This document shows positions 5,326 to 32,349 of a stretch of 35,696 bases of DNA, in pieces. A program made the position numbers and the translations under genes. This stretch comes from Fusobacteriota bacterium. Lineage in GTDB: Bacteria; Fusobacteriota; Fusobacteriia; JAPLKR01. Position 1 is the first letter of the stretch. Each line of letters starts with the position of its first letter. The notes under the pieces are model-generated. The model was not told where the DNA came from, ran no database searches, and saw nothing but the letters and a program-made list of their open reading frames with translations. The stretch is from contig JAPLKR010000058.1 of NCBI GenBank assembly GCA_026387965.1, forward strand, positions 1 to 35,696. Direction: 5' to 3'.

Positions 5326-6819
5326 CTACACTCTCGAATAAAGTTCTGTGATGTGTTTGAAAAAATCAAACATCTCTTCTGAAAGATTATCAAAATCAAA
5401 ACGCCATTGCCAGTTCCCGGATGCCACCGAAGGCACGTTCATACGTGCTTCATCACCACACCCAAGCAGATCCTGCATTGGAATAATAGAAAAAACTGCT
5501 GTTGAAGCTGTTGCTGCACGGATAAAATCCTTCAATATTGTCTCTTCTTTCGCATTCAAATAATCTCTTGCAAAAGCTTGATCTGTTTCTTTTGCTCCTC
5601 TATACCATCCTAGAAGTGTTTGATTATCGTGAGTTCCTGTATAAACAATACTGTTAAATGAATAGCTATGCGGAAGAAAATTCAGTGCAGGTTCTGCACT
5701 GTCAAATGCAAATTGTAATATTCTCATACCTGGAAAATTAAAATCATCTCTGAGTTTCTCTACATCCGATGTAATAACTCCAAGGTCTTCTGCAAGAATT
5801 GGAAGTACACCTAATTGATTTTTAATCTCAGTAAAGAGTTCATAACCGCACGCTGGTAACCACTCCCCTTTGATCGCCGTTTTCTCTTCAAAAGGGACTG
5901 CCCAGAACCCTGTAAAGCCTCTAAAATGATCAACACGAAGAAAATCAAATAGTTTAAGACCTGCCTTACAACGGTCAATCCACCATTTGAAATTTGTCTC
6001 TTTCAGTTTATCCCAATTGTATAAAGGATTTCCCCAAAGTTGCCCTGTTACAGAGAAGTAATCTGGGGGAACTCCTGCTACTTTTACTGGTTTTCTATCT
6101 TCATCAAACATAAACATCTCGGTATTGGCCCACGCATCCGAACTATCCGAAGCAACATATATTGGCATATCACCAACAATCTTTACCCCTTTGCTGTTAG
6201 CATAGTTCTTTACTTTTTCCCATTGTTCAAAAAAAAGAAATTGAATAAATCCATGAAAATCAATCTCATATGCAAGTTTATCTCTGAAAAAATCAAGTGT
6301 TTGAGACTTTCTCATTCTTAAATCTTTTTCCCACTCATGCCAAGATTTTCCACCGTGTTCTTTTTTAAGCGCCATAAAGAGCGCATAATCATCAAGCCAC
6401 TCTCTATTTTGAAGTTGGAAAAATTCCACTTTGTTTGCATTCAAATTTGATGTTCCAGCTCTAAAGTTTTCGTATGCTTTATAAAGAAGTGGAAATCTCT
6501 CATTATAAAGACGACCAAAATCTATAAAACACGCACTTGGTTGTTTTTCTGGCAAATCACCTTCAGAAAGCAAATTATACTCTACTAATTTTTCTAAACT
6601 CACAAAGTATGGATTTCCAGCAAAGGCAGAGAAACATTGATATGGTGAATCTCCATACCCTGTTGGTCCCACAGGACAAAGTTGCCAAATTTTTTGATTC
6701 ATACTCGCTAACAAATCAACAAATTCGTAAGACTCTTTTCCTAATGTTCCGATACCATACTCGTTTGGTAAGCTTGATAAATGTAATAAAACTCCACTAC
6801 TTCTTTCAAATTGAGACAT
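5326..6819 (-). CDS. malQ: 4-alpha-glucanotransferase (amylomaltase)
   Basis: A 497-residue GH77 enzyme that transfers alpha-1,4-glucan segments between maltooligosaccharides and releases glucose. The nucleophile region LRVDHFRGF, the acid/base region ILAEDLGVIT and the transition-state region TGTHDNQT are all intact, as is the N-terminal signature SSGVLLHLSSLPNEYGIGTLG. I chose the ATG at 6817-6819 because GGAGG at 6825-6829 is ideally spaced from it; starts further upstream would include the RBS in the coding sequence. It follows the ROK kinase and glgC on the same strand, so it likely processes glucans from glycogen or imported maltodextrins. A hairpin terminator separates it from the kinase gene. 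Confidence 0.97.
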   Translation of the reverse strand: MSQFERSSGVLLHLSSLPNEYGIGTLGKESYEFVDLLASMNQKIWQLCPVGPTGYGDSPYQCFSAFAGNPYFVSLEKLVEYNLLSEGDLPEKQPSACFIDFGRLYNERFPLLYKAYENFRAGTSNLNANKVEFFQLQNREWLDDYALFMALKKEHGGKSWHEWEKDLRMRKSQTLDFFRDKLAYEIDFHGFIQFLFFEQWEKVKNYANSKGVKIVGDMPIYVASDSSDAWANTEMFMFDEDRKPVKVAGVPPDYFSVTGQLWGNPLYNWDKLKETNFKWWIDRCKAGLKLFDFLRVDHFRGFTGFWAVPFEEKTAIKGEWLPACGYELFTEIKNQLGVLPILAEDLGVITSDVEKLRDDFNFPGMRILQFAFDSAEPALNFLPHSYSFNSIVYTGTHDNQTLLGWYRGAKETDQAFARDYLNAKEETILKDFIRAATASTAVFSIIPMQDLLGCGDEARMNVPSVASGNWQWRFDFDNLSEEMFDFFKHITELYSRV

Positions 6820-6846
6820 ATTATCCTCCATATTCAATGTTTTTAT

Positions 6847-6880
6847 AAAAAATGTACACGAAATACGTGTACATTTTTTT
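6847..6880. terminator. Hairpin terminator between the ROK kinase gene and malQ
   Basis: The perfect 10-bp stem AATGTACACG/CGTGTACATT (6851-6860 and 6866-6875) has a five-base loop and is flanked by A and T runs. On the minus strand it follows the kinase stop codon at once and has a six-T tail. It lies inside the 60-base gap before malQ, where I see no promoter. Confidence 0.8.
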
Positions 6881-7860
6881 TAAGCATTATGTAATTTCAA
6901 TAAAGCGCACGCCCCTACAATTCCTGACTCATTACCTAATTTTGAAGGAATAATTTTTAAGTTTTCATAAATAGCTGCCATTGTGTATTTATACATTCTA
7001 TCACGCAGACCATCAAATAGGATATCTCCCGCAAGACTTAATCCACCACCAATTATAATAATTTCTGGATTTAAAATATTGGCAATATTTGCAATTCCTT
7101 TAGCGAGATAATTTAACTCATAATCTACTAAAAGCAAACAAAACTTATCACCTTGTTTAGCACATTCAAACACAGCTTTTGCCGTTACCTGTGTTGCGTC
7201 TCCACCACAAACTTCCCAAAGCATAGTATTGTTATTTACTTCCATTCTCATACGCGCTTCTCTTTCAAGAGCTAGAGAAGAGCAATATGCTTCCCAACAT
7301 CCGTATTGCCCACATCCACATAGTTTTCCATAAAGCTCTCCCGAACTTTTTATTTTCATATGTCCAACTTCGGCGGCGGCACCATTTGCTCCAGAAACTA
7401 GCTTGCCATCAATAATAATGCCACCACCAATTCCTGTTCCAAGCATAATGCCCAAAATGTTTTTATACCCAATTCCCGCACCTAACCATGCCTCTCCCAT
7501 TGTCCCACAGTTAACATCATTTCCAACTCTAACAATCATCTTCGTCTCTTCTTCAAGGCGTTTTTGAAGCGGAAATTGTTCAAATCCCGGAATATTCGCA
7601 CAGCTAAACACAATCCCGGTATCCGTATTAGTAGGTCCAGGTACTCCCACACCAATTCCCATTACAGTATCTCTACTAGCGTCAACATCAAACATCAACT
7701 CGCTGATAACAGTTTTAATACTTTCAACAACATGATCAGCACCTGCTTTACTTGTTTTTACTTTTTTTTCACTTAAGATTTTGCCTTCTAAATCGGTAAT
7801 TCCAGCCTTTATCGTCGTTCCACCGATATCGATTCCAATTATATATTTTGCTTAATTCAT
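6880..7860 (-). CDS. ROK-family glucokinase-like sugar kinase with an in-frame TAA at codon 3
   Basis: A ROK-family kinase likely phosphorylates glucose at C6. The N-terminal ATP-binding motif GIDIGGTTIKAG lies just after the proposed start. VGNDVNCGTMGEAWLGAG carries the catalytic Asp, AAEVGHM is the ROK EVGH motif, and the zinc motif CGCGQYGCWE is complete. A strong GGAGG RBS (7866-7870) sits five bases before ATG at 7858-7860, but the reading frame is ATG AAT TAA (stop at 7852-7854) and then 323 intact codons. No ATG, GTG or TTG lies between this stop and the ATP motif. The next usable start, about 160 bases in, would remove the motif. It may be a recent nonsense mutation, a sequencing error, or unusual initiation or readthrough. 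The neighbours glgC and malQ favour glucokinase. Confidence 0.85.
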
Positions 7861-7898
7861 GTAAACCTCCTAAAGTATAATTATAATTTATTTAAAAA

Positions 7899-9203
7899 TT
7901 ATAAACTAAAAATTTTATGATAGAAATTTTCTTTCACATTTGGATGGATAGAAATTCCCGATTTGATAATGGACGTTTTGAAATCTACCACTTGAGCACG
8001 AGGCAAGATTCTGCAATTTCTCTCAATAATTGTTCGAGAAGGAATATTGACAAATTTCCCAATAATATTAAGACCTTGCGAAACTAGTGCTGGCACCTCA
8101 TAATTGGGGATTTCTACTTCTCCTACACCAATTTGGCATCCTTCACCAATAACGCAGCTTTTATCGATTATTGTATCATGAATAACACAATTTTTTTGAA
8201 TGAGAGTTTTATTTAAAATAACACAATTCTTAACCACTGCACCCTCTTCTATGATAACATCCGCAGAAATAACGCAATTTTCAATGCTTCCATTAATGAT
8301 TGCGCCACTTGACACAAGCGAATTAATACATTTTCCATGCGGACCAAATTTTACAGGAGGGGACGTTGAGGCTGTGGTTAATATTTTAACACTTGGATCA
8401 TATACATCAATTGGAGGATTTTCATTCGTAAGTTCTATGCTCGAACGCCAGTACTCTTCTACTGTACCGACATCTTTCCAAAATCCGCCAAATGTATGGG
8501 CTGATACTTTGTATTCCTGAATGATTTTAGGTAATATATCACGCCCAAAATCTGAAAGCCCTTGTGGACCACAATACTTTAATAAAACTTCTACTAATAC
8601 TTCTGTCTTGAAAATATAAATTCCAAGTGAAGCTAAATTAGATTTAGGAAAATCTGGCTTTTCTTCAAATTCAATAATCTCGTCTTTTCTATTTTTTACG
8701 ACCATTCCAAAACGCTTACTTTGCTTCTTATCTATTTCCGAGACAACAACCGTTACATCCGCATTGCGCTCTTCATGGTGTTTGAAGATAGGCCTATAAT
8801 CCATTACACAAATTTGATCCCCTGGTAAAATAAGCACATATTCAGGACGTCTTTCAATGATATATCCTAAGTTTTGATATACTGCATTAGCCGTTCCTTC
8901 ATACCATGGTTTGTTAAATTTTTGATACGGCGAAAGTATGGTTACACCATTCTCTCTATCCATATCCCAAGCTTTTCCTATTCCAATATGCTCCGTTAGC
9001 GAGCGTGGAAAATATTGCGTCAGAATTCCTACTGTATAAATATCAGAATTTACACAATTGCTTAAAACAAAATCAACAATACGATACTTTCCACCAAAAG
9101 TTACCGCAGGTTTTGCTCTATCATATGTCAACAAATCAAGTCTTGTTCCACCTCCACCAGCTAAAATCATCGCTAATGCGCGGGTTTTGAATTTTTTATC
9201 CAT
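7899..9203 (-). CDS. glgC: Glucose-1-phosphate adenylyltransferase (ADP-glucose pyrophosphorylase)
   Basis: A 434-residue enzyme that makes ADP-glucose from glucose-1-phosphate and ATP for glycogen synthesis. The nucleotide-binding signature is AGGGGTRLDLLTYDRAKPAV, with GGKYRIVDFVLSN following. The sugar-phosphate region includes EFEEKPDFPKS, and the C-terminal part (about 280-420) is a left-handed beta-helix with hexapeptide-like repeats. I chose the ATG at 9201-9203 because AAAGGTG lies six bases upstream; a GTG three codons earlier overlaps that RBS. It is the first gene of the glgC-kinase-malQ cluster and divergent from trpS. A TATAAT box is present about 40 bases upstream, but the -35 is weak. 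No glycogen synthase or branching enzyme is in the window. Confidence 0.95.
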   Translation of the reverse strand: MDKKFKTRALAMILAGGGGTRLDLLTYDRAKPAVTFGGKYRIVDFVLSNCVNSDIYTVGILTQYFPRSLTEHIGIGKAWDMDRENGVTILSPYQKFNKPWYEGTANAVYQNLGYIIERRPEYVLILPGDQICVMDYRPIFKHHEERNADVTVVVSEIDKKQSKRFGMVVKNRKDEIIEFEEKPDFPKSNLASLGIYIFKTEVLVEVLLKYCGPQGLSDFGRDILPKIIQEYKVSAHTFGGFWKDVGTVEEYWRSSIELTNENPPIDVYDPSVKILTTASTSPPVKFGPHGKCINSLVSSGAIINGSIENCVISADVIIEEGAVVKNCVILNKTLIQKNCVIHDTIIDKSCVIGEGCQIGVGEVEIPNYEVPALVSQGLNIIGKFVNIPSRTIIERNCRILPRAQVVDFKTSIIKSGISIHPNVKENFYHKIFSL

Positions 9204-9286
9204 TTTTGACACCTTTTGATTTTATTTTAATCAATTATATTATATCGAATCGTTCCTTTAAAATCTAGTGCTTTTTTCATATTTTC

Positions 9287-11564: not shown

Positions 11565-12547
11565 ATTATCTCTTCTCCCTATTTCTTTTTTCTATCTTAA
11601 CGTTTATTTTGAAATATTGCAACTATCTTAAATTTCATTTTACTTTTCTGTGTGTCCTTCTATTGATTTATTCGAATGACTATGTTATAGTAAAATATAT
11701 TAACCAAATTGAGAATTGTAATGTGAAAAATAGCACTCAAAATGAAAATTAACCGCGGAGATGCGTTCCTTATACATGCATTGTACACGGTATTCCTTTT
11801 ACAACGATCGTTGTTATCTTAAGAATTATGTACAAAAATTATTAAACGTAAAAACACTCCATTTTCAATCACTACCGCTGAATCTACTCTCTGAATCTTA
11901 CTTAGGAGTTCAAGCGTTTGATCAAACTCTTGCTACTTGTTTACAATAAATGCGTTAAAATATCTATATACCAAAACGCCAGGCGGAGGTCTTTACTGTT
12001 CTATTGGGATATATGAGAATCACTCAATTAAATCCATCCTCAACTACCGATGTATTAAAAATTTCTTTACCAACGTAAATATCATGATAGCAGTTGTGAC
12101 GTTTGAAGCATACTGATATTTACAATCACATCAGTATTTTTATTTCGACCAATAAAGGAGAATGAATCTATATTTGCAATATTTACTCCAAAATTCATAC
12201 TATTGTGCATCTACATGATATCCTCCTTTGTTGATAACCACTATCCGCTAAAGCAGATACACATGTTGTTGCAGCAACAACAAAAGTAATAACTCTTTAC
12301 ATTCATTATTCTCCCTATTAATATCTTTGCCAAGAATAATCAACTTGCCCCTCTAAGTATATAAATATTTTTTCCTATTTTCTCCAAATCCCCTCAATTA
12401 TTATCTAAAAAAATCAACTTAGATTGTGCATAATTTGACTAATTTATCAAATATTTACGAATAATTTTTAAGATGTTCACGTAAAGTTCGTAGTTAATTG
12501 ATAAAATAAAGAGTGTTTTTAAAATTCAAATCTATAAGGAGTCCTCT
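11565..12547. other. 983-bp stretch without an intact gene, apparently decayed
   Basis: Between the NlpC/P60 gene start and the POT-like transporter start, all six frames are broken by frequent stops. The longest plus-strand open stretch (11761-11949) has no RBS and looks random. On the minus strand a degraded secreted-protein gene can be traced near 12307 (see separate entry). The last 200 bases before 12548 are very AT-rich and should hold the transporter promoter, but I see no convincing -35/-10 pair. No tRNA, CRISPR or transposon end was recognised. Confidence 0.6.
11970..12307 (-). pseudogene. Remnant of a small secreted-protein gene (frameshifted)
   Basis: On the minus strand a GGGAG RBS (12312-12316) precedes ATG at 12305-12307. 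The ATG frame runs only 21 codons. Removing one base in the AAAGAG that follows codon 3 would give MNVKVITFVVAATTCVSALA, then DSGYQ: a textbook Sec signal peptide with an ALA-type cleavage site. Further minus-strand fragments follow in shifted frames, such as GGYHVDAQ, MNFGVNIANIDSFSFIGR and YVGKEIFNTSVVEDGFN, each ended by stops. This pattern suggests an accumulating-lesion pseudogene of a small exported protein. I do not recognise the family, and the downstream fragments could be chance. The signal-peptide part is the strongest evidence. Confidence 0.4.
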
Positions 12548-14274: not shown

Positions 14275-14327
14275 AAAAGATTAAGCGACAGAAAGAGTTT
14301 TTTTCTCTTTCTGTCGCTTAATCTTTT
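14275..14327. terminator. Long perfect hairpin at the 3' end of the transposase remnant
   Basis: A perfect 23-base inverted repeat (14275-14297 and 14305-14327) surrounds a seven-T loop. On the minus strand it overlaps the last codons of the transposase fragment and ends in TTTT. It may be a terminator carried by the insertion sequence or the surviving edge of the element. Confidence 0.6.
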
Positions 14328-14605
14328 GGAACTAATAATTTTTGATTGTAAACATCCATAAGTTTCAGATAACCTAAAGATTCATGGTAACGTTCAAAAT
14401 TGTAAAAGTAAATGTACTTATTGATAGCTTCTTTAAGATGTTTAATTGACTCAAAATTGAAAAAGTAAACCATCTCACATTTGGCAGAACGCCAAAACCT
14501 TTCAATGCAAATATTATCAGTAGTTCTTCCTTTACCGTCCATAGAAATTTCTATTTGATTTTCACTCATAATAAATCCTTTTAAATAGGTTTTGAAAATT
14601 TTCAC
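14318..14605 (-). pseudogene. IS3-family transposase (OrfB), C-terminal fragment
   Basis: The fragment encodes the last part of an IS3-type DDE integrase core. ISMDGKGRTTDNICIERFWRSAKCEMVYF contains the third catalytic acidic residue, in the IERFW context, and FYNFERYHESLGYLKLMDVY is the typical C-terminal helix region. Homology begins about ten residues before MSENQ. The first two catalytic Asp residues, the N-terminal half and OrfA are absent, so it cannot transpose. The nominal GTG start at 14605 is only where the open frame begins. No terminal inverted repeats or target duplication were identified. It is a scar of an older insertion beside the yfiH gene. Confidence 0.88.
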
Positions 14606-18889: not shown

Positions 18890-18916
18890 AAGAAGGGGGA
18901 TTTTCCTCTCTTTTTT
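18890..18916 (-). terminator. Terminator after the phosphoglucomutase gene
   Basis: On the minus strand AAAAAAGAGAGG pairs, with one mismatch and one G:T pair, with CCCTTCTTTTTT, ending in a T6 run. It overlaps the pgm stop codon and lies in the 46-base gap before hemW. Confidence 0.65.
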
Positions 18917-20639
18917 ATTCTACCGACAGTGCTAAGCTTTCAAAAGCCTTTTTATACACTTCTACTTTCTCTACTGCTGCTTTTTCACTATTTGCTTTTA
19001 CTGCAATATAGATTTTAAGTTTCGGTTCGGTTCCAGAAGGCCTTGCTGTTACAACTGACCCCTCTTCTAATACATACTGGATCACATTTGAAGCAGGTAG
19101 ATTAATCACTTTCGAAATGTCCGTTTTAAGACATTTTTCAACATGTGTTTTAAAATCTCTTGCCACGTCTACTTTTATCCCTGCTATGTCTGTTGGCATA
19201 TTATCTCTAAAGTGGTTTACAATTCTTCCAATTCTTTCAATTCCGGCTTTTCCCTCCATTGAGATAGCCACAATTCCCTCTTGATAGAATCCAAAACGGG
19301 TATAGAGTTTCTCAAGCTCCTCTTCTACGCTACTTCCAATGCTATCAAAGTATGCAAACATCTCGGTCACAAGCATTGCTGCGCCAACAGCATCTTTGTC
19401 TCTTGCATGCGTGCCTTTTAAATATCCATAGCTCTCTTCAAACCCAAATAGATACGTATGAGAATCATTTGCTTCTTTAAAAAGCTTAATTTTCTCGCCG
19501 ATGTATTTAAATCCAGTCAGAGTTCTCATGGCTTCAACACCGTACTCTTTACATAAAGCATCTAACATTGGAGTAGAAACAATCGTTGATACCACCACAC
19601 CATTTTTTGGCACACTCATATTTGAAATAATGTAATAAGTGAGCAAAATTCCAATTTGATTTCCATTTGGGAAATACCATTTTCCATTTTTTCCTCTTAC
19701 AGCTGTCCCAACTCTATCGCAATCAGGATCAGTGGCAATAATATACTTTGCTCCTTTTTCTTCAGCGAGTTTCATTCCAAGTTTAAACACTCTTGGGTCT
19801 TCAGGGTTTGGGTAGTCAAGCGTCGGGAAATTGCCATCTGGGGTGGCTTGTTCTTTTACAAGGTAAAGGTTTTCAACACCAATGGTTTTTAAAGCTTCTG
19901 GAACCCCTTCAATACCACATCCACACAAAGGGGTAAAAACTATTTTAAAATTTTTAACTGTTTTTACAATTCCAGGTTTTACTTGTTGACGCAAAACTTC
20001 TGCCATAAATCTAGCATCTAAATCTTTAGAAATTACATGCATAAGTCCTTTTGCAAAAGCCTCTTCCTCACTCATAAGCTTTATTTGTGAAAGATCTTCA
20101 ATTTTATTCACTTCTTTGATAATCAATGTATCATGTGGATCTGCCACTTGAGCTCCATCTGTCCAATATACTTTATATCCATTATACTCTTTTGGATTAT
20201 GACTTGCTGTAACCATTACCCCTGCAAGACACCCTAACTCTCTTACCGCGTATGAAAGTGTCGGTGTAGGTCTTAAACTCTCAAAAATAAAAACTTTTAT
20301 TCCATTTGCTGCCATTACAAGGCCAGTGTTTACCGCATACTCTCTCGAGCCAATTCTTGAATCATGAGAAATCGCAATACTTGCTCCTTGTGGCATTGCT
20401 TTTAGCATATAATTTGCTAACCCTTGCGTTGCTAGTCGAATGGTGTATTTATTGATACGGTTCGTTCCTACTCCTCGAATCCCACGAAGTCCGCCTGTTC
20501 CAAATTCTAATGATTGGTAAAAACGTTCAGTAATTTCTGCATCATTTCCTTTAATATTTTCCAATTCTTTTTTATCGTTTTCTTCGATAAAATCTGAATT
20601 TAACCATTTTTCATACATTATCTGTACCGCTTTTTCCAT
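18915..20639 (-). CDS. Phospho-sugar mutase (phosphoglucomutase/phosphomannomutase)
   Basis: A 574-residue alpha-D-phosphohexomutase. The phosphoserine loop is TASHNPKEYNGYK (Ser146), the metal loop is DPDCDRVG, the sugar-binding loop is GFEESYGYL, and the phosphate-binding loop near the C-terminus is RPSGTEPKLKIY. Its length and sequence match the PgcA-type group that interconverts glucose-1-phosphate and glucose-6-phosphate. It therefore links the ROK kinase to GlgC and glycogen, although mannose phosphates cannot be excluded. An AAGGAGAG RBS precedes the ATG. It follows gltX by 20 bases and is the last gene of the tatD-prfB-gltX cluster. Confidence 0.95.
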   Translation of the reverse strand: MEKAVQIMYEKWLNSDFIEENDKKELENIKGNDAEITERFYQSLEFGTGGLRGIRGVGTNRINKYTIRLATQGLANYMLKAMPQGASIAISHDSRIGSREYAVNTGLVMAANGIKVFIFESLRPTPTLSYAVRELGCLAGVMVTASHNPKEYNGYKVYWTDGAQVADPHDTLIIKEVNKIEDLSQIKLMSEEEAFAKGLMHVISKDLDARFMAEVLRQQVKPGIVKTVKNFKIVFTPLCGCGIEGVPEALKTIGVENLYLVKEQATPDGNFPTLDYPNPEDPRVFKLGMKLAEEKGAKYIIATDPDCDRVGTAVRGKNGKWYFPNGNQIGILLTYYIISNMSVPKNGVVVSTIVSTPMLDALCKEYGVEAMRTLTGFKYIGEKIKLFKEANDSHTYLFGFEESYGYLKGTHARDKDAVGAAMLVTEMFAYFDSIGSSVEEELEKLYTRFGFYQEGIVAISMEGKAGIERIGRIVNHFRDNMPTDIAGIKVDVARDFKTHVEKCLKTDISKVINLPASNVIQYVLEEGSVVTARPSGTEPKLKIYIAVKANSEKAAVEKVEVYKKAFESLALSVE

Positions 20640-22838: not shown

Positions 22839-23939
22839 GACTCCTCCTTTTTCCATTTTAAATAAGCAAAAATATATTTATCAATTTTTCCATCCATAAC
22901 AGAATCTACATTTCCTTCTTCATAGTTCGTTCGATGATCTTTCACCATCATATACGGTTGAAACACATAACTTCGAATTTGATTACCCCATGAAATTGAG
23001 GCATTTGAACCCTTTATTTTTAGAAGTTCTTCCTCACGTCTTTTAAGTTCAAGTTCTATAAGTTTTGAACGTAAAACCTTCATCGCTGTCTCGCGATTTT
23101 GAATCTGTGAACGCTCATTTTGGCATGTTACCACAATTTTTGTAGGCAGATGTGTAATTCGAACTGCCGAATCCGTTGTATTAACGTGCTGGCCACCTGC
23201 TCCTGTAGAGCGATAAACATCAATTCTGATATCTTTTGCCTGAATTTCAAGCTCTTCACTGTCCTCTATCTCTGGCATGATATCAATGGAAGCAAAGGAT
23301 GTATGTCGGCGCTTATTCGCATCAAAGGGCGATATTCTAACAAGCCTGTGCACCCCTTTTTCACCTTTTAAATTACCAAATACATACTCACCTTTTACAA
23401 GCAGTGTTGAAGATTTTATTCCCGCACCATCGCCAAGTTGTCTATCTAGTATTTCAACTTTATACCCATTTCTTTGACACCAACGCAGATACATTCTCTC
23501 TAACATCTCTGCCCAATCGCACGCCTCTTGCCCTCCGGCACCTGAATGCACCTGAACAATCGCATTGTTGAAATCATACTCACCACCCAGTAGCATTTTC
23601 AGCTCTAAAGTCTCTATCTTTGTAGCAATGATCTCAACATTTTTAATTAGCTCGACTTCAGAGTCGTTGTCCCCTGTTTCCACAAATTCAATAAGGACAT
23701 TAATTTCATCTAAAGAGGATTCTAAACTATAATACTCTTGAAGCAGTGCTTTTTTCATCGTTAACTCTTTAGTAATATGAGATGCTTCACGAGCAGAATC
23801 CCAAAAACCTTGCGAAAACGCTTGTTCTTCTAATTTTACTATGTCATTTTTCAATCCATCTAAGTCAAAGATAACCCCTAATATCACTTACTTTCGCACG
23901 GTATAGTGCCATCTCACGTTTTATCTCTAATATATCCAT
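22835..23939 (-). CDS. prfB: Peptide chain release factor 2, with programmed +1 frameshift
   Basis: RF2 reads UGA and UAA stop codons. The ATG at 23937-23939 opens a 24-codon frame ending in CTT TGA C (CTT 23868-23870, TGA 23865-23867). Reading resumes in the +1 frame at GAC (23864-23866), giving about 367 residues. An internal Shine-Dalgarno-like AGGGGT lies three bases before CTT, as in E. coli prfB. The codon-recognition motif SPF is in VRISPFDANKRR and the catalytic GGQ is in STGAGGQHVN. The frameshift autoregulates RF2: low RF2 slows UGA termination and favours the shift. A GAGG RBS precedes the ATG. It follows tatD by 16 bases and overlaps the next gene by four. Confidence 0.97.
23864..23880 (-). 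promoter_or_regulatory. prfB programmed +1 frameshift site
   Basis: The minus strand reads AGGGGTTATCTTTGAC: an internal SD, a three-base spacer, the slippery CTT, the in-frame TGA and a following C. It differs from the E. coli site at one base of the SD (GGGGGT versus GGGGTT context). Confidence 0.95.
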
Positions 23940-31485: not shown

Positions 31486-32349
31486 TTAATTAATCTCTAT
31501 TGGCATATCTATGGAAAATGTATTGTCTTTTTCCAAAAATACAACCCCTTCTTTCTCTCTTAAATCTCTTGAATGACCAATAAAATCAGCAATCCCGCAC
31601 CAAGGTTCTACACACACATAAGCCGCTCCTGGCTTTGACCAAAAGGCTAAATATTCAAATCCTTTAACCCCTATTTTAATCTCTGAGTGATCATATATGT
31701 TTTTGATTTTTACATAGTCTGACTTTAAGTTCTTAAAAATCCAAGCATCATTTTCAAAAATAGTTTTAGATAGGAACATCTTTTTTGATTTTTCAAGGCC
31801 TGGTAACATTGTCCGAGAAATATACATACCCTCCACAGGATAGCGCCTTGTCGTTTCTTCTTTTTCAAACTCAATAAAGTATCCATCAATGGTTCTTCCA
31901 GAATCTAAAGGGCATGCAAAGCCAGGATGACCACCTACAGAGAAAATCATCACTTCGCTACCCCTGTTTTCCACTCTGTATTCAACATTAAGGCTTCTAC
32001 CTTTGAGCGTATAAATGAGTGAAAACTCAAATTCAAAAGGAAATATTTTTAAGCTCTCCTCGCTACTTTTTAAAACAAAATGGACAAAATTTTCACTGTG
32101 TGCTCTCATTTCAAACTCAACGCCTTGGGCAAACCCATGCTTTGCCATCGCATACTCGTTTCCATTTAAAGTATATCCTCCATCAATAAGGCTCCCAATA
32201 ACAGGAAATAGCACTGGCGAAGTTTTTTTCCACACTTCGCCACGCCACATATATTCTTTTTGTGTTTTCACGTCTTTAAAACTCACAAGCTCTGCACCTA
32301 AGCTCTTAATTTTTGCTACTACTTCACTATTTTCCAATATAATATCCAT
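31486..32349 (-). CDS. Aldose 1-epimerase family protein (LacX/GalM-like)
   Basis: A 287-residue galactose mutarotase-fold protein, shorter than GalM and closest in layout to LacX-type proteins. It begins with the family strand ILENSEVVAKIKSLGAELVSFK, then KKTSPVLFPVIG, KHGFAQGVEF and GGHPGFACPL (catalytic His region), and YVCVEPWCGIADF with the catalytic Glu. It probably interconverts anomers of a hexose or hexose phosphate, but the substrate is not fixed by the sequence. AAAGGGG precedes the ATG. It lies 11 bases after the ogt stop, so the two are cotranscribed. Confidence 0.88.
   Translation of the reverse strand: MDIILENSEVVAKIKSLGAELVSFKDVKTQKEYMWRGEVWKKTSPVLFPVIGSLIDGGYTLNGNEYAMAKHGFAQGVEFEMRAHSENFVHFVLKSSEESLKIFPFEFEFSLIYTLKGRSLNVEYRVENRGSEVMIFSVGGHPGFACPLDSGRTIDGYFIEFEKEETTRRYPVEGMYISRTMLPGLEKSKKMFLSKTIFENDAWIFKNLKSDYVKIKNIYDHSEIKIGVKGFEYLAFWSKPGAAYVCVEPWCGIADFIGHSRDLREKEGVVFLEKDNTFSIDMPIEIN

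Follow-up and report, generated by a model that had tools for sequence, protein, structure and literature searches.

In silico analysis of the window, i.e. the whole stretch of 35,696 nucleotides considered here, has revealed a ROK family glucokinase gene that carries an in-frame stop at its third codon and is otherwise intact. The best explanation, given a probability of about 0.88, is a single nonsense substitution in an intact gene, be it an error in the consensus or a loss of recent date. One nucleotide change would have turned codon 3 of an ordinary glucokinase gene, lying between glgC and malQ, into a stop; such a change may be a base miscalled in the consensus of a draft assembly of 141 contigs, or it may have happened very recently in the sampled strain as a nonsense mutation. 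Should the TAA be genuine, translation would end after two residues with release of the ribosomes, and the gene would yield no functional kinase, as the phosphate-binding motif lies upstream of the next canonical start.

Start, stop and open reading frame

The minus strand reads AGGAGG-TTTAC-ATG-AAT-TAA-GCA-AAA-TAT-ATA-ATT-GGA at the site. It comprises a Shine-Dalgarno sequence (AGGAGG, 7866-7871), a spacer of 5 nt (TTTAC), the best candidate start codon (ATG, 7858-7860), a single sense codon (AAT, 7855-7857) and the in-frame TAA (7852-7854). The ATG is a credible start, since 5 nt is the most frequent spacing between the Shine-Dalgarno sequence and the start (69 of 280 ORFs) in the genome sample, which consists of the window and the sampled contigs (486,619 bases in total). 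Behind the TAA, the frame stays open for 323 sense codons up to a terminal TAA at 6882-6880 (open part with its stop 6880-7851, minus strand). Coding bias is normal along all 323 codons, and no further lesion has been found among them. Every sequence detail of the preliminary description (Shine-Dalgarno sequence, ATG, AAT, TAA and 323 codons) is thus correct.

The earliest in-frame ATG, GTG or TTG past the TAA is a TTG found at codon 52 after the stop (position 7698); the first 51 codons contain none. The phosphate-binding motif DIGGT (7816-7830, minus strand) precedes every canonical in-frame start left, which bears out the earlier claim that no such codon lies between the stop and the ATP-binding motif. 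With TAA at codon 3 and the next start past DxGGT, the glucokinase frame is not translatable from a canonical start. Mechanical ORF calling begins the gene at the TTG at 7698 and cuts off the motif.

Gene identity and neighbourhood

The open remainder matches the ROK family glucokinase model TIGR00744 with 266.4 bits (curated cut-off 260.35) over profile positions 1-309 of 318, PF00480 at 3.5e-73, and solved glucokinases, e.g. PDB 2qm1. All the motifs DxGGT, EVGH and CxCGxxGCxE are present, at residues 8, 161 and 178 of the remainder, respectively; the ROK zinc motif reads CGCGQYGCWE (7291-7320, minus strand). Judged by these matches, the gene is an ordinary ROK glucokinase on the same strand as its two flanking genes. 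According to their profile matches, both neighbours are intact; upstream lies a glucose-1-phosphate adenylyltransferase of the GlgC/GlgD type (7899-9212, minus strand) and downstream a 4-alpha-glucanotransferase, MalQ (5326-6837, minus strand), with trpS divergent and upstream of the three genes. A neighbouring glucokinase fits here, since MalQ (amylomaltase) releases free glucose. The "glycogen cluster" of the preliminary description holds for the adjoining glgC, ROK and malQ genes and has to be limited to them; the glycogen synthase gene, glgA, is on a different contig.

Other features of the window include two adjoining sugar-porter genes (PF00083; 25057-27917, minus strand), a phosphoglucomutase-family gene (18915-20639) and an aldose epimerase gene (31486-32349). 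A segment of about 1 kb (11565-12547; G+C 30%) has neither a long ORF nor an Rfam match.

Frequency of the arrangement in the genome

The genome sample was searched for a Shine-Dalgarno sequence of at least 5 bases, followed by a start, a stop within 12 codons and then at least 150 open codons. This arrangement occurs once in 486,619 bases, at the glucokinase gene only; the open frame is therefore a real gene and its stop differs from the usual chance pattern. The shorter pattern GGAGG-N3-9-ATG-NNN-TAA is not enriched, with three matches genome-wide against six in the reversed control. The other two matches share one sequence, and the copy on L091 lies in a transposase-type fragment with more stops. 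Among ORFs lacking a start with a Shine-Dalgarno sequence in their first 60 codons, the latest first in-frame starts belong to the glucokinase gene and one transposase-like fragment; the others look like normal genes whose start is weak or lies further in, or like remnants of transposase type. Where long open segments are parted by one stop, a start always follows within 17 codons downstream, as in neighbouring genes. No convincing in-frame nonsense pair has been found among the long ORFs of the 487-kb sample, and the sampled contigs show no excess of lesions of the kind expected from a generally poor assembly. As the site is unique in the sample and the short pattern is not enriched, there is no sign of general recoding or of a recurrent minigene device.

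A remnant of an integrase-core (rve) transposase, represented by its C-terminal part only, is located in the window at 14318-14605 (minus strand); related transposase-type fragments lie on L065 (13622-14149) and on L091 near position 1500.

Relatives and age of the stop

The assembly comprises 1.79 Mb and is 95.5% complete. Relatives were sought in 98 genomes of the class, in which the order is represented by this genome alone. The nearest orthologues, 47-56% identical, are all intact. Position-by-position comparison places an ATG exactly at the TAA codon of the window in five of the closest ones, L006 and L007 (56%) and L093, L094 and L095 (47-52%); in most other relatives of the class the start is found one codon downstream of this position. 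No class relative compared has a stop between the start and the phosphate-binding motif. The order trpS, divergent from glgC-ROK, is retained in G027 (56% identical), and glgC-ROK in G040; with this conserved gene order, the window gene is very probably a vertically kept orthologue. A scan of named genomes gave relatives at 28-42% only, and a search of viral contigs gave no match.

Because the class relatives compared are open from start to motif, the most likely place for the origin of the stop, or for its miscalling, is the lineage that ends in this single assembly. Random substitutions in the ORF would produce a stop in about 5% of cases (144 of 2907); a frame free of further stops therefore suggests few neutral changes since the event. 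Its age is bounded only loosely in this way, and the clean frame fits a young mutation and an error alike.

Possible bypass of the stop

The preliminary description offered a recent lesion, an assembly error or a bypass, be it by readthrough or by initiation at a non-AUG codon. These are the right alternatives, and the first two are favoured; bypass, which has no positive support, is disfavoured by the tRNAs, the release factor and the distance of the near-cognate codons. Readthrough of the TAA by a suppressor tRNA or an altered code is scarcely credible. Nothing in its support has been found, TAA is the main stop codon of the genome (213 of 348 long ORFs), no stop-reading anticodon occurs among the 33 of 35 tRNAs typed, and recurrent in-frame stops, as expected from reassignment, are absent from the 487 kb. 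The window also encodes release factor RF2, which reads UAA as well as UGA; its gene, prfB (23939-22835, minus strand), has the classical +1 frameshift site AGGGG...CTTTGAC near 23870. Owing to this programmed frameshift, automatic ORF calling loses the N-terminus of prfB.

The other route around the stop would treat ATG-AAT-TAA as a minigene, with the glucokinase reinitiated behind it at ATA or ATT and expressed at a low, regulated level. Its anatomy is like that of known two-codon UAA minigenes, e.g. ATGactTAA in axe-txe (PMC8708949), and both codons, the only in-frame near-cognates ahead of DxGGT, would retain the motif. However, the distance from the Shine-Dalgarno sequence to the downstream ATA and ATT is 23 and 26 nt, respectively, which is probably too much for direct initiation; the described minigenes precede ordinary starts (PMC8708949); and the arrangement has not been seen in any orthologue compared, the nearest being 56% identical. 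This reading is accordingly held improbable, and its stricter form, a minigene conserved in a poorly sampled order and keeping the glucokinase at a controlled low level through AUA or AUU reinitiation, more improbable still. If the stop did prove conserved, it would represent a rare case of non-canonical initiation.

An upstream start in another frame combined with a frameshift was considered and rejected; the ATG is already in the kinase frame, which a single-base indel would break. No RNA family or leader element was matched by Rfam in the window, and the predicted fold of the leader is weak (-4.9 to -7.7 kcal/mol). A sigma-70-like sequence on the minus strand, TTTACA-16-TATAAT (11 of 12; 7865-7838), overlaps the glucokinase start and stop. 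It is likely a chance match, since the window holds five others of 11 or 12; promoter-like matches in the region number 19, close to the shuffle mean of 15.5 (sd 3.6).

Origin of the stop codon

Under the preferred reading of a single nonsense substitution, its two possible sources are considered about equally probable. A consensus or assembly error, in which case the organism has a sense codon and a fully functional gene, stands near an even chance. The draft state of the assembly, the isolated, single-codon nature of the event and the intact state of glgC, malQ and the orthologues speak for it, whereas other obvious errors are absent from the sampled contigs. A real and very recent nonsense mutation, with the glucokinase lost and glucose use covered by other kinases or PTS uptake, falls somewhat below an even chance. 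The genome does encode such substitutes, namely three more ROK kinases (one of them scoring close to the model for glucokinases) and a single PTS EIIB domain, and its transposase remnants show that gene decay occurs. Against this, a use for the kinase is to be expected, since its gene adjoins malQ, the source of free glucose, in a conserved neighbourhood, and the window also contains two sugar-porter genes.

Consequences for glucose and glycogen metabolism

The loss of the gene was expected in the preliminary description to matter to glucose use, the gene being the only kinase of its cluster. Among the four ROK proteins identified in the genome by similarity, the window gene alone does score above the TIGR00744 cut-off. 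Yet a second glucokinase-like ROK protein reaches 222.6 bits, below 260.35, and two further ROK kinases and the EIIB domain are encoded as well. The loss, if real, would thus be likely to have an effect, without necessarily putting an end to glucose use. In the whole assembly the glycogen phosphorylase model TIGR02093 has no match, despite the glgC-type, glgA and malQ genes.

The site also calls for caution in annotation. A gene caller would either drop about the first 50 residues, including the phosphate motif, or report a pseudogene, and metabolic models would lose the best glucokinase candidate of the genome over one codon in a draft assembly.

Comparison with known systems

The gene shares with the ROK family glucokinases (TIGR00744; PF00480; 2qm1) the full-length match and the DxGGT, LGTGIG, EVGH and CxCGxxGCxE motifs, and differs from them, in this assembly, by having codon 3 as a stop. 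Two-codon minigenes that tune downstream genes have been described as mg2 of axe-txe and in the B. subtilis ycbK leader (PMC8708949). The Shine-Dalgarno sequence, the start, one sense codon and the UAA stop are common to them and the window site. In contrast to the window gene, which has no canonical in-frame start before codon 52, the main gene in these systems has a canonical start of its own.

A term-based literature search found no published work on nonsense errors in draft assemblies. With a start-proximal nonsense allele, i.e. a young pseudogene or a sequencing error, the window gene agrees in its one stop, intact frame, intact orthologues and uniqueness in the sample, and it differs in nothing tested. 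Nothing points to a new mechanism; the feature is ordinary in kind.
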